Positions 6,076 through 13,670 of a DNA stretch of 34,553 nt are shown here, one piece after another; position 1 is the first letter of the stretch, and every line of letters starts with the position of its first letter. Source of the DNA: a virus; the IMG/VR virus record IMGVR_UViG_3300035703_000265, positions 1 through 34,553 of that record. The stretch is one strand, 5' to 3'. The translations under genes were made by a program, and so were the position numbers. The notes beneath the pieces are model-generated. The model worked only from the letters and a program-made list of their open reading frames with translations, had not been told where the DNA came from and did no database searches.

Positions 6076-6103
6076 CTTATATGTAGAATACCACATCTGC
6101 CAA
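6076..6103 (-). promoter_or_regulatory. Leftward sigma70-type early promoter
   Basis: On the minus strand TTGGCA (-35, 6103-6098) is followed by a 16-base spacer and TATAAG (-10, 6081-6076), each one base from consensus. Predicted start near 6069, about 30 bases before the ATG at 6039. It drives the whole leftward recombination operon. A TGTAGAAT copy (6082-6089) lies in the spacer. Confidence 0.65.
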
Positions 6104-6159
6104 AAAAATGTAGAATTTTTTATTAGTATTTATACTTAGTTAAAAAAATGAATAGCCTG

Positions 6160-6181
6160 TTGTAGAATCAAAGATCTACAA
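6160..6181 (+). promoter_or_regulatory. Inverted-repeat operator over rightward -10
   Basis: TTGTAGA (6160-6166), 8 bases, TCTACAA (6175-6181) is a perfect 7-bp inverted repeat. It covers TAGAAT (6163-6168), the likely -10 of the rightward promoter, with a weak -35 TTAAAA at 6140-6145. Two more TGTAGAAT copies stand at 6082 and 6109. AAGGAG follows at 6181 for the Cro-like gene at 6193. The likely ligand is the Cro-like protein it precedes. Confidence 0.55.
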
Positions 6182-6192
6182 AAGGAGAAGAT

Positions 6193-6390
6193 ATGGAAAC
6201 TGTTGCACAAAAACAACACTTTGATAAATTGCTTGAGATCTTTGGTGGATATAAAGAGATGGCGCAAAAGCTCAATATGAAGTATGTAACAGTCTATGCA
6301 TGGTCAATGCGCAACAGCATACCTAAAAAGCACCACCAAGCGATTATTGCTGCATCAGAGGGCAGACTAACTGCTGAAGATCTTGGCTAG
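6193..6390 (+). CDS. Cro/YdaS-like helix-turn-helix regulator
   Basis: Sixty-five residues. The core FGGYKEMAQKLNMKYVTVYAW (residues about 15-35) reads as a lambda-repressor-like helix-turn-helix: helix 2 KEMAQKL, turn NMK, recognition helix YVTVYAW, then NSIPKKH and a final helix with LTAEDL, as in YdaS/Cro-type phage proteins. Strong AAGGAGA ribosome-binding site. It probably represses the divergent promoters at 6076-6181. No CI-type partner is present on the other strand, where the first leftward gene is a Cys-containing protein. The next gene starts inside its last codons. Confidence 0.75.
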   Translation: METVAQKQHFDKLLEIFGGYKEMAQKLNMKYVTVYAWSMRNSIPKKHHQAIIAASEGRLTAEDLG

Positions 6391-6694
6391 TCTTAATCAG
6401 CGCACAATCGCTTTATTTGAAGAAAGAGGGTATCAATGCGATACAGTCGAATCCTACAATGCCTTTACAAGGCGCAAAAAAGACCTATTCGGTCTGTTCG
6501 ACATATTGGCTATTGGAAAAGAAGAAACTGTGGCAATTCAACTTACATCAAAAAGCAATATGTCAGCAAGGGTAAAAAAAATAAGCGAATCGCCTATCCT
6601 TCCAGAGCTTTTAAGATCCAAGTGGAGAATTTTAGTCATTGGGTGGTTCAAAAAGCCCAATGGAAGATACGATTACAAAGAATTTGAATTTTAG
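6383..6694 (+). CDS. PD-(D/E)XK-like putative nuclease (TTG start)
   Basis: 103 residues from a TTG that overlaps the end of the Cro-like gene. The pattern RRKKDLFGLFDILAIGKEET then VAIQLTSKSN (residues 30-60) matches a restriction-fold family in which D-x-x-G-x-x-D is followed by (A/I)-I-Q-x-T; the usual (D/E)XK is thus QLT, so catalysis may be altered. The second half ends in a basic strand-rich segment (KWRILVIGWFKK). Such proteins are frequent as single genes in phage early regions; function not established. Confidence 0.55.
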   Translation: MASLNQRTIALFEERGYQCDTVESYNAFTRRKKDLFGLFDILAIGKEETVAIQLTSKSNMSARVKKISESPILPELLRSKWRILVIGWFKKPNGRYDYKEFEF

Positions 6695-6710
6695 TTTATA
6701 GTATTGATTC

Positions 6711-6890
6711 GGTCTTATCTGGGCGATGAAAACCACTAGCAGATAAGATACAAGGGCTACTAGGGGTTCAAAGGATGTAACAGCCCAAACATCGGTGGCG
6801 AAGATAGTGCCGATTCCTTGAAAGACTGTCGGGTTCTGTGGCTCCAAGAGACAGATGAAGGCGAATCTAGGTTAGGCTAGGTTCGTTCAC
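6711..6890 (+). ncRNA. Candidate structured non-coding RNA
   Basis: No gene lies between 6695 and 7015. Stem A: 6713-6721 with 6740-6748 (9 bp). Stem B: GGGCT 6754-6758 with AGCCC 6782-6786. Stem C: ATCGG 6791-6795 with CCGAT 6810-6814. Stem D: CTGTC 6826-6830 with GACAG 6850-6854. Stem E: 6862-6870 with 6877-6885 (9 bp, one G-T pair). The loops of A (AACCACTAG, 6731-6739) and B (CTAGGGGTT, 6760-6768) are complementary at 8 of 9 bases. A further helix, 6767-6775 with 6815-6822, could replace B. A -10-like TATAGT at 6697-6702 would start the RNA near 6709. G+C is higher than around it. I do not recognise a known class. Confidence 0.6.
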
Positions 6891-6899
6891 CAAAAGACA

Positions 6900-6988
6900 G
6901 TTATATATTTATATAACTTATAACTACTAAAATGTTTCTTAAAATATACCTAAAGGTTAATATTTGTATCATAAAAGATACATTAACC
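6900..6988. other. A+T-rich palindrome cluster, possible origin or regulatory site
   Basis: GTTATATA-TT-TATATAAC (6900-6917) is a perfect 8-bp-arm palindrome. A second nested inverted repeat follows: GGTTAA (6955-6960) with TTAACC (6983-6988), enclosing GTATC (6966-6970) and GATAC (6977-6981) round an ATAAAA loop. The stretch between is nearly pure A/T. There is no U-run, so a terminator is unlikely. With no gene present, a DNA-unwinding or protein-binding site is possible. Confidence 0.4.
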
Positions 6989-7015
6989 TGTTTAATGGAA
7001 CATTTATGAGCCATT

Positions 7016-7696
7016 ATGGATGAACAAACATTTAAGCAGCAAGCTCTACAATTCTTAGAAAAAGAAACTCGATTTGAGTGCCATGCTTATCCTTGTTTAA
7101 ATGACGATAGGAGTCATGGATTCGATGAACACTATGTCTACCATGTCGCATGGGCTGCAAACAAAATAGCGCACATTAATCCGCTTTCTCATGTCGATAT
7201 AGGCTCATCTCTACATCTCTGCACTACAGTCGCAGCTCATACTCAAACTACTTACTTAGATTTTCGAGTTCCTAATCTTCATGTAGAAAATCTATCAGTA
7301 GGACAAATCGATATAGCCAATCAATCGATAGAGCCTGTAGAATCTTTATCATGCTGTCATGTTGTAGAGCATATAGGTTTAGGCAGATATGGCGATAATC
7401 TCGACAATACAGGCGATCTTAAAGCAATTGAAAATCTCAAAAAAAGCGCAGCAAAGCATTTGCTATTTGTTGTGCCTGTTGGTAAGCCTGCTGTTTATTT
7501 CAATGCACATCGAGTCTATAGCCCTGTCTATATCGCCTCACTATTTGCAGAATTTGTTTGCAAAGAGTTTTACTTGATACCTAATAATGGCGAAAAGCCT
7601 AGAGTAAGTCTTATAGAAGAGTTGGAGCTCCCATATGCTTGCGGCTGTTTTCATTTTATTAGTAGAAATACTTACATTAAAAATGTAGAATTTTGA
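7016..7696 (+). CDS. DUF268 family methyltransferase-like protein
   Basis: A 226-residue protein that fits DUF268, a family found in O-antigen and glycan clusters and resembling SAM-dependent methyltransferases: SHVDIGSS (residues 68-75) is the glycine-poor cofactor-like motif, then SLSCCHVVEHIGLGRYGD (120-137), VPVGKP (163-168) and FNAHRVYSP (172-180), all highly characteristic. Substrate unknown; sugar methylation or a related glycan step is a family-based guess. It is the first gene after the structured-RNA region and stands alone, with no good ribosome-binding site (a GGAA precedes a tiny out-of-frame ATG at 7006). It joins the glycosyltransferases of this phage as part of a possible glycan set. 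Confidence 0.8.
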   Translation: MDEQTFKQQALQFLEKETRFECHAYPCLNDDRSHGFDEHYVYHVAWAANKIAHINPLSHVDIGSSLHLCTTVAAHTQTTYLDFRVPNLHVENLSVGQIDIANQSIEPVESLSCCHVVEHIGLGRYGDNLDNTGDLKAIENLKKSAAKHLLFVVPVGKPAVYFNAHRVYSPVYIASLFAEFVCKEFYLIPNNGEKPRVSLIEELELPYACGCFHFISRNTYIKNVEF

Positions 7697-9617: not shown

Positions 9618-10025
9618 ATGTTAAAGCAACAATCGCTAGATATTTTTGATAGCAATGAAGAAAACCTAATCAGCTCTGTCTACACAAAAAAAGTAGAAGT
9701 GCCTGTTTATGTGCCTAACTATCAAAAGCCAAGTATTCATGAGCTTTACGATCATACAAAGACTGTTAAGCTCATTCAGAAGATTAAAGAGTCTAATGTT
9801 TCTGAAGATGAAAAGAAGTTTCTCATTTATGCAGCATATCGCCACACAATCTTAAACTTTGCAAAGATAGCAGACTACTACTCGCACTCAAGCGAAGAGC
9901 TGCAAGACTTAATGGAACAATCTGCGCTAGTCATTATTGACTTTGATAAAGCCATAGAGAATGGCTTTGCTATTTTGAACTCAGAGCTGTCAAATCAGTA
10001 TTTAGAGGATCAAAATGCAAAATAA
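9618..10025 (+). CDS. Partner gene of TAGT-like glycosyltransferase
   Basis: 135 residues from ATG 9618, chosen for its GGGGGA site; an upstream in-frame ATG at 9564 lies in the previous gene. Core: KTVKLIQKIKESNVSEDEKKFLIYAAYRHTILNFAKIADYYSHSSEELQDLMEQSALVIIDFDKAI (given here only as a description of the motif region, residues about 50-115, key parts SEDEKKFL, AAYRH, KIADYY, LMEQSALVIIDFD). From memory, very similar proteins sit directly before TAGT-type glycosyltransferases in other phages and resemble the C-terminal part of ParB-like proteins. The 11-base overlap with the next gene fits a two-gene module. Confidence 0.6.
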   Translation: MLKQQSLDIFDSNEENLISSVYTKKVEVPVYVPNYQKPSIHELYDHTKTVKLIQKIKESNVSEDEKKFLIYAAYRHTILNFAKIADYYSHSSEELQDLMEQSALVIIDFDKAIENGFAILNSELSNQYLEDQNAK

Positions 10026-11780: not shown

Positions 11781-11953
11781 TGATCGATTATGCTGAATTT
11801 GTCTTAAAATTAAAAAGTCTACAAAATCAATACCATGACTGTATGCTGCACAAAGATTTAGAGCAGGCCATGATTGTTTCAGACAGCATCTTAAAAACAG
11901 CTAAATCAATCAATGACTTTACTAAGTTATGTATAGAAACAAAAAGCTGCTAG
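11780..11953 (+). CDS. Small helical protein
   Basis: Fifty-seven residues, MIDYAEFVLKLKSLQNQYHD ... SILKTAKSINDFTKLC. Two amphipathic helices in prospect; no motif or family. It overlaps the YbcO-like gene by 25 bases. The pattern resembles small phage proteins that describe pairs of helices flanking a His/Asp turn, without known role. Confidence 0.5.
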   Translation: MIDYAEFVLKLKSLQNQYHDCMLHKDLEQAMIVSDSILKTAKSINDFTKLCIETKSC

Positions 11954-12212
11954 AAGTTGCTAGACTATTACCATGTCAATTATGTGGTATAGAAGATGGA
12001 ACTGTCGTGGCTGCACATTCCAATCAGCTCAGAGATGGAAAAGGTAGAGGGCTTAAAGCAGATGATTATCGCATTGCATCCCTCTGCTATCGCTGCCATG
12101 CGGAAATCGATCAAGGTAGCAAACTCTCGAAAATCTCAAGGATTGAGATGTGGGAACAGGCTCATAGAGCCACAATTGGTGAACTCTTTGCAAAAGGTTT
12201 TATTGAAGTAAA

Positions 12213-12219
<7 letters not shown>
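11929..12219 (+). CDS. YbcO-like (DUF1364) HNH-type nuclease
   Basis: Ninety-six residues. LPCQLCG (14-20), VVAAHSNQLRDGKGRGLKADD (26-46) and LCYRCHAEIDQG (52-63) give the two zinc knuckles and the A-H-S and C-H-x-E-I-D active-site blocks of the DUF1364/YbcO family, lambdoid HNH-like DNases that often accompany or replace the RusA resolvase. It probably nicks branched or single-stranded DNA during replication or recombination. Its stop codon TAG (12217-12219) lies inside the acceptor stem of the tRNA that follows. Confidence 0.8.
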
Positions 12220-12288
<69 letters not shown>

Positions 12289-12642
12289 CTACAGCTCAAG
12301 AGGATCAAAGCCTAGCTCTTTGCCTACCATGTGGCAGCGAGTTCTAAACTCTTTGCCATGCTGCGCCCACTTATTGCCTATTCGTCTGTAGAAGCTCATA
12401 TGAATCATCTCATGAGCCATTGTTCTTATGACGGTATCAAGAAAGCCACATCGCGCAGATGAAATAGTAACTATATGCTCCCACTTTTCTCCATCATCAT
12501 AAAGATATGTGCCCATTGTTTCATGGTCTTGATTGACAATAAAGCGCACTTGCTCTGGTAGCGGCAGCTTCCATTTAGAAAAAGGCTCGCAGCAATACAG
12601 CATACTGTAGATGTTTTTCAGTATGGCAGGTGTCAGCTTCAT
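12289..12642 (-). CDS. SprT-like zinc metalloprotease
   Basis: A 117-residue protein with the zinc protease motif HEMIH (residues 77-81) and the third ligand in HGKEF (His95), exactly as in the SprT/SPRTN family. The bacterial and eukaryotic relatives act at DNA-protein crosslinks; phage versions are common but undefined. The usual C-terminal zinc ribbon is absent. It overlaps the upstream phosphoesterase gene by ATGA, and these two are the only leftward genes in the right two thirds of the genome. Confidence 0.85.
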   Translation of the reverse strand: MKLTPAILKNIYSMLYCCEPFSKWKLPLPEQVRFIVNQDHETMGTYLYDDGEKWEHIVTISSARCGFLDTVIRTMAHEMIHMSFYRRIGNKWAQHGKEFRTRCHMVGKELGFDPLEL

Positions 12643-13670
12643 ACTTTCAAAATCTCTCCTCGAAACTCTACTTCATCTTCACCGCAGACTTGTATCATCT
12701 CAGGCATTAGCATTTTACCTCGATCCCATGACAGCATGACAAAGCCTGAGCGCCAATCTTTAGGTGAGTCCTCTGTGTAATCTGCAAACTGCATATTGTT
12801 TGGCTCTGCTAGTGTGCCTGTTTGAACACCCCAAATCGTCTTAGAATAGCCTGTAATGGGCTGACAAGCTAGGACATGAGTGTGTCCTGTAATGATGTTA
12901 GTCTGAGCTGCTACAGCATTGTTATAGCCAGCATATCGGCCACCTTTAAATCGATGCTTGATAACAGTATCATCATTAACCCAGAATGACCAACAGCTTT
13001 CCCAATTAGGAAAATGGTCTTTCAAATGAAACCCATATACACCTTCATAGGCACTAGCTTGAGCTGCTAACATCGTCTCGAATCTCGCATCATGATTCCC
13101 GAGACACCATATCAGTCTGCAGCCTGCAGGCCTAATCTTTTCAATCTCGCCTAAATAAAACTTATTTGCTTCTAACTCTTCTTGAACTGTTGGTTTTTTA
13201 TCCCAACCAATTCTAGGAAATCGACTGATAGAGCCACCATCAAATGAGTCTCCATTATTTACAATGACATTAGGCTTAAAATTTTCAATGAACTTTAAGA
13301 GTGCTTTGTAAGCTGTTGTAGTATCTTCAGGCCAAAAATGCGCATCGCTAAAAACAATGATTCTGCCTTTTTCTAATTCTATTCCCCTTCTTACCGATAC
13401 AGGCGCTTCTTCTATCTTTGCTTTATTTGCTTCTTGCCTTGCTAATCTTTCTTGTTTTTGTTTTTCATTATGAGCAGCTCTAAGATTAACTGTGGTGTCT
13501 AGAGTTACATTCTTTTTGATCTCTACACTTCTGCGCCTATTTTGAACTGCTCTAAGGCTCATGCCTGTAGCTTTAGCCATTAAAGTAGGACTAGGATTAT
13601 CTTTCCATTTGGCTATAAATTCTTCATCTGTTAGATAATACCCATAACCATTTCGATTTACTATGCCCAT
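12639..13670 (-). CDS. Calcineurin-like metallophosphoesterase with N-terminal HTH
   Basis: A 343-residue two-domain protein. Residues 13-50 (LTDEEFIAKWKDNPSPTLMAKATGMSLRAVQNRRRSVE) form a helix-turn-helix of the type used to bind DNA (described by key parts LMAKATGMS and RAVQNRRR), followed by a charged linker. The catalytic part has all metal-site motifs: SDAHFWP (Asp109, His111), NNGDSFD (Asp141), LGNHD (191-194) and TGHTHV (261-266). It may cleave DNA, nucleotides or a regulatory phosphodiester. Divergent from the late regulator, with promoters in 13671-13753. Confidence 0.85.
   Translation of the reverse strand: MGIVNRNGYGYYLTDEEFIAKWKDNPSPTLMAKATGMSLRAVQNRRRSVEIKKNVTLDTTVNLRAAHNEKQKQERLARQEANKAKIEEAPVSVRRGIELEKGRIIVFSDAHFWPEDTTTAYKALLKFIENFKPNVIVNNGDSFDGGSISRFPRIGWDKKPTVQEELEANKFYLGEIEKIRPAGCRLIWCLGNHDARFETMLAAQASAYEGVYGFHLKDHFPNWESCWSFWVNDDTVIKHRFKGGRYAGYNNAVAAQTNIITGHTHVLACQPITGYSKTIWGVQTGTLAEPNNMQFADYTEDSPKDWRSGFVMLSWDRGKMLMPEMIQVCGEDEVEFRGEILKV

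Follow-up and report, generated by a model that had tools for sequence, protein, structure and literature searches.

The guide RNAs of TnpB and IscB, like the bridge RNAs of IS110, combine a structured scaffold with a variable segment, and the N/boxB sites of lambdoid phages provide a phage-specific sequence at a constant position after cro. Phage HK022 carries a structured RNA, put, of about 70 nucleotides (nt) with two stem-loops, which occurs once in each early operon (putL and putR, the latter ~270 nt after PR), binds RNA polymerase at the beta-prime zinc-binding domain, and suppresses termination (PMC9378689). The subject here is an RNA encoded on the plus strand at positions 6709–6902 (ends approximate, placed by homology breaks among otherwise unlike phages) of the IMG/VR virus record IMGVR_UViG_3300035703_000265, whose 34,553 nt make up the window to which all coordinates refer. 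From its sequence, this is a phage noncoding RNA of the Rfam family RF02932 (Betaproteobacteria-1 RNA), with a pseudoknotted core and, beyond the Rfam model, a 3′ domain in which a short, phage-specific segment occurs in two matched copies.

An Rfam scan of the whole window returned two matches, one to a tRNA and one to RF02932. The latter (6712–6834, +; 95 bits in cmscan, where the curated gathering score is 49.4 bits) covers positions 1–120 of the model, complete and not truncated. No pair is broken in the model helices P1, P2 and P5, and sequence and structure agree throughout. An initial annotation of the window, made from its letters alone, had called this structured RNA unassigned, a description that the full-length match overturns. 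The Rfam scan proposed in that annotation explains the identity of the RNA but brought no function for the family, and the literature searched gave neither a function nor a phage context for RF02932. The family, which is entered in Rfam as a small RNA (sRNA) gene, was reportedly described by Weinberg in 2017. The RNA is carried by many phages of Betaproteobacteria at one copy per genome; each phage record gave one strong match, contig-end repeats aside, in a set whose metagenomic records may be incomplete. When the core was used as a search pattern, more than 119 viral stretches came up, nearly all of them true homologues; of 119 stretches from bacterial genomes, about 25 were true loci, nearly all in Betaproteobacteria. 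DNA searches of isolate phages gave Acidovorax phage AP1 only, and a DNA search of plasmids gave no match to the RNA.

Support for the fold comes from covariation and not from folding energy, which is unremarkable (−50.3 kcal/mol for 180 nt; z = −0.76, with 42 of 200 shuffles folding equally well). In an alignment of 62 non-redundant homologues (A1), 85.8% of structure cells are paired, against 33–44% when the partners are slid by 1–3 columns. The covariation score is 0.479 (0.09–0.12 slid), and 622 cells are changed on both sides, compared with 214 in shuffles. A chance origin of the structure is ruled out by these slide and shuffle controls, and the features that the initial annotation had described in this gene-free stretch are all present in the sequence. 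Another test, needing little alignment, asks whether a sequence forms a better helix with its own partner strand than with one taken from another sequence; it backs P1, P2, P3, P4, P5, P6 and P8 (z 7.4–21.9), with P7 (UGUGG with CCAC) weak at z = 2.6. Phylogeny is not modelled by the permutations, a shortcoming that the slide control and the thinning of redundant sequences remedy in part. GGTGGCGAAGNTAGNGCC served to pick the first homologue set, and the columns under this pattern are therefore invariant by construction; a second set was picked on the 3′ domain alone.

Every main helix shows covariation in homologues, the check suggested in the initial annotation, as do the kissing loop and the two pseudoknots. 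P1 (stem A; 6712–6721 with 6740–6749, 10 bp; z = 21.9) has double changes at all 10 pairs, and P2 (stem B; 6754–6758 with 6782–6786; z = 11.5) is double-changed as well. The 8/9 loop-loop complement of these stems, already noticed in the initial annotation, is by the criterion of covarying pairs a genuine kissing contact, K (6731–6739 with 6760–6768; conserved part 6736–6739 with 6760–6763). Here 94.8% of cells are paired, and a sequence forms 4.02 of 5 pairs with its own partner but at most 3.66 in 2000 permutations. In fixed register, pair 2 is A-U in 55 cases and G-C in 5, pair 3 is C-G in 48 and U-A in 11, and pair 4 is C-G in 23, G-U in 13, A-U in 8 and G-C in 7; the contact as a whole is made up of four covarying pairs, a purine-purine mismatch (A6735–G6764 in the window), which accounts for the single exception in the annotated 8/9 complement, and one further pair.

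Downstream of these stems, P3 (6791–6796 with 6809–6814; z = 7.5) is double-changed at its three outer pairs. Its three inner pairs are invariant, but in the pattern-selected set; in the second set, the closing U-G is replaced by C-A or A-U. P4 (6771–6775 with 6815–6819; z = 12.1) has 96.6% of cells paired and double changes at 5 of 5 pairs. It begins in the P2 loop and ends beyond P3, and is therefore a pseudoknot and not an alternative helix. The initial annotation had proposed just such an alternative, a mutually exclusive helix of 6767–6775 with 6815–6822; the helix itself is real and covaries across the 62 homologues, but P4 excludes neither stem A nor stem B and can coexist with both. 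The other pseudoknot, P5, joins the P3 loop (6803–6808) to 6825–6830 (z = 11.2; 99.2% of cells paired) and contains the strongest covarying pair of the entire RNA; its variants in the second set include GCCAGA/UCUGGC and GGAAGC/GCUUCC. The structure line of RF02932 is without the kissing loop, P3 and P4.

Counted from GGTGG (6794), the homology shared by otherwise dissimilar phages is usually lost at about −85 to −110 on one side and +105 to +125 on the other. Since it persists to ~105–125 nt past the start of that motif, the RNA runs ~70 nt beyond the Rfam model, which stops at 6834, to about 6900. The added length is new, and on this comparative evidence it is a 3′ domain that holds P6 (6835–6839 with 6851–6855; z = 7.4), the last stem P8 (6862–6870 with 6877–6885, 9 bp; z = 12.0) and the two matched segments, all of them outside the model. 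Copy 1, AAGAGACAG (6846–6854, core AGACAG at 6849–6854), comes after GGCUCC (6840–6845). Copy 2, AAAAGACAG (6892–6900, with the same core at 6895–6900), comes after UUCACC (6886–6891) and forms the 3′ edge of the RNA, with the homology break just after it.

These segments of 8–10 nt are nearly identical inside one phage and different between phages, and at least 36 distinct cores occur in the set. Their longest shared run averages 6.75 nt over 103 distinct pairs, as opposed to 3.9 nt for cross-pairs and at most 4.21 nt in 300 permutations. This was replicated in the second set, which was not selected on the core, with a mean run of 6.90 nt against at most 4.20 nt in 1000 permutations. Column by column, the two copies are coupled by identity in register, ranking straight after the top P3 and P5 pairs, and the coupling is register-specific and not tract-like. 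Such behaviour suggests a previously undescribed, sequence-specific job for the matched segments. The surroundings of both segments resemble each other over ~25 nt. Direct copies of the segments in phage searches were in mild excess (z ~3) at inconsistent places, an excess ascribed to composition. A three-way identity coupling was also seen in A1, with G/G/G or A/A/A at CGgGT, gAAGG and CTAgGT (6832, 6858 and the 6881 region of the window); the 3′ units, two in number, may thus have arisen as repeats of a single motif and then diverged.

With respect to its genomic setting, a −10-like TATAGT on the plus strand at 6697–6702 makes plausible the RNA start near 6709 given in the initial annotation. 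Similar boxes (TATAGT, TAGAAT, TAAACT) lie just past the upstream stop codon in several relatives that have no preceding terminator RNA; the −10-like signal is weak overall, with a 5/6 match at 26 loci versus 16 in a control stretch. In the main group of freshwater phages, the RNA comes after a Cro/YdaS-like gene, at times with one cargo gene between. In the window, it comes after a YdaS/Cro-like gene (Pfam match slightly under the cut-off) and one further gene, an arrangement that recurs in many relatives and would place it under an early promoter, and the next gene, DUF268, is on the same strand ~110 nt downstream. The annotated location between the Cro-like/nuclease genes and DUF268 was thereby supported. 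In another phage group, the RNA comes after helicase and primase genes, as it does in the isolate Acidovorax phage AP1 (OM049504.1), whose RF02932 match at 11856–11979 lies between the primase gene and the one after it. No single protein family stands beside the RNA across all phages, and the downstream gene varies from phage to phage.

Several other features of the window may be recorded here. By eye, two A+T-rich hairpins lie just downstream of the RNA (6899–6918 and 6956–6990), with arms AGTTATATA/TATATAACT and GGTTAAT/ATTAACC, the latter with inner GTATC/GATAC. The sequence TGTAGAAT occurs 10 times in the window, where 1.6 occurrences are expected and no shuffle reaches 10; its sites include 6082–6089, 6109–6116, 6161–6168, 7336–7343 and 7684–7691, and three sites are operator-like in their placement in the divergent promoter region ahead of the Cro-like gene. 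A gene at 10015–10896 matches Pfam PF20691, a TET-associated glycosyltransferase (E = 6e-38), and could possibly take part in hypermodification of phage DNA bases. Finally, the interval 12213–13670 contains tRNA-Thr(TGT), followed by SprT-like and calcineurin-like phosphoesterase genes on the opposite strand.

Immediately before P1, 46 of 97 distinct loci have a stem of 9 bp or more that ends in a run of T; these long-stemmed upstream terminators had been missed by a simple terminator scan. They belong with an element of 130–160 nt, resembling a terminator RNA, that has a TATAAT-like box in many copies, a long-range pseudoknot-like pairing and a strong intrinsic terminator. This element was seen upstream of RF02932 in six loci (L005, L014, L020, L072, L103, L120) and, in four others (L437, L444, L469, L478), after a relative of the window gene at 6383–6694. 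Among relatives of that upstream gene, RF02932 is found in just 10 of 65 scorable loci. In many of the other loci, that position is taken by a TATAAT element and a terminator RNA that looks pseudoknotted, followed by a structured-looking block of roughly 200 bases or more. Such blocks are of at least three types: type one in L437, L448 and L461, type two in L442, L444, L445 and L463, and type three in L485. Block structures were judged by eye and the terminator RNA also by single-sequence folding; among the loci tested, neither the terminator RNA nor the replacement blocks matched Rfam.

Chromosomal copies, which also occur in Paraburkholderia, number 1–4 per genome; within one genus, 13 of the 99 genomes sampled had them. 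With so few copies, a multi-copy mobile RNA was rejected (an integrase link was not looked for). In Burkholderiaceae, they share an upstream promoter-like block with TATACAT, and the next open reading frame (ORF) is on the same or the opposite strand in equal numbers (5 to 5), with no constant neighbour. Partial chromosomal copies break repeatedly at about −24/−20 and +7 to +12 from GGTGG (L178 and genomes G001, G004, G005, G034, G044 and G094), as if by recombination or integration inside the core. Mimicry of 16S rRNA, considered on account of GGUGGCGAAG and GACUGACG, E. coli 16S sequences shared with the RNA, was also rejected: only 8.5% of the RNAs aligned better than shuffled ones (p<0.05) to the 16S of a Caballeronia, in which GGTGGCGAAG is absent.

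The reading that we favour, tentatively and at somewhat less than even odds, is that of an RNA that acts in trans, with a core for binding to the host and two matched segments for recognition. The compact 5′ core (P1–P5, with the kissing loop and two pseudoknots) would bind one conserved betaproteobacterial host component, as might be expected of an RNA that occurs in unrelated phages as well as in betaproteobacterial chromosomes and has no constant adjacent gene. The matched segments would display one phage-specific recognition sequence twice and, since the same sequence is shown twice, the RNA would act in trans on a phage-variable nucleic acid or protein, as a dual-recognition guide or decoy. 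This reading is preferred because the matched segments are the most distinctive feature of the RNA and the chromosomal copies stand alone. Several observations weigh against it, however. The matching of the two segments is not absolute, and no convincing complement to them turned up in the RNA itself, in the surrounding 2.5 kb, or in 21 phage genomes, searched whole or in large part. Moreover, in 96 of 101 phage loci the nearest downstream ORF (95 aa or longer) shares the strand of the RNA, and the simple terminator scan placed a terminator after the RNA in only 3 of 112, both of which would suit a cis role as well. An unlikely alternative, drawn by analogy, is such a cis role: early in the rightward operon, the nascent RNA would, like HK022 put, bind the polymerase of the host and let transcription pass pauses and terminators without a phage protein. 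A position just after the Cro-like gene, comparable to that of putR (PMC9378689), the strand of the downstream gene and the conservation of the core across different phages would all be in keeping with this. Location and orientation would thus be explained. Left unaccounted for would be the matched segments, the presence of one copy per phage (where HK022 has both putL and putR) and the terminator-like RNA directly before about half of the loci; a length of ~200 nt with pseudoknots, as opposed to ~70 nt with two stem-loops, and the lack of a preferred orientation of chromosomal copies to the next gene also count against it.

The matched segments could also be accounted for in other ways. They might be two sites for one phage-variable protein, the RNA being a platform for a phage-specific RNA-binding protein much as boxB is for N. 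Two matched sites that change together in an early operon would fit, but no constant or co-varying neighbour gene was seen and at least 36 segment cores would demand many specificities of one protein family, making this improbable. To much the same low degree, we would credit the idea that the segments are a mere mutational by-product, arising when related 3′ repeats undergo gene conversion or template switching, with the role of the RNA lying elsewhere. The likeness of the ~25 nt around them is as this would predict; however, among close relatives all 6 changes at position 4 affect both copies but none of the 18 at positions 2–3 does (pairs that are not independent), and so patchy a coupling disfavours plain conversion, as does the fact that the CTCC and CACC contexts remain distinct while the segments remain alike. 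Lastly, the initial annotation had raised the prospect of a riboswitch-like leader, here a leader or attenuator of DUF268. Although the RNA is on the same strand and ~110 nt ahead of that gene, the next gene differs among phages and the supposed alternative helix is not alternative, which leaves this role very improbable. An anti-host RNA, also raised there, may apply, as may a trans-acting RNA.

Returning to the trans-acting RNA that we prefer, a broader and rather doubtful proposal is that it represents a previously undescribed class of phage RNA, in which a freely varying recognition sequence would be shown twice on a conserved pseudoknotted scaffold as a programmable guide or decoy, within an early-region slot where several unlisted structured RNAs would swap. 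At the least, a common phage RNA emerges from an orphan Rfam family, with a well-supported tertiary design, extra length and a concerted variable element, and these make its function directly testable. If the matched segments are indeed recognition sequences, phages would be using RNA in a strategy that is new, and more such RNAs could be sought in the slot adjoining cro.

Among known systems, type III antitoxins are tandem repeats of whole pseudoknots beside a toxin gene; in the present RNA, just a short segment is repeated and a constant neighbour is lacking (no toxin-specific search was made). With the guides of TnpB and IscB and the bridge RNAs of IS110, the RNA shares the design of a scaffold plus a variable segment, but the segment is present twice and no constant nuclease, transposase or recombinase gene adjoins it; no domain of the TnpB, IscB or IS110 type was found among the window proteins scanned. 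Like the N/boxB sites, it presents a phage-specific sequence at a constant place after cro, although no N-like protein was identified and the variants are far more numerous. Finally, like HK022 put, it is a structured phage RNA early in the transcript and adjoining cro, while being longer, pseudoknotted, present once per genome and furnished with variable matched segments.
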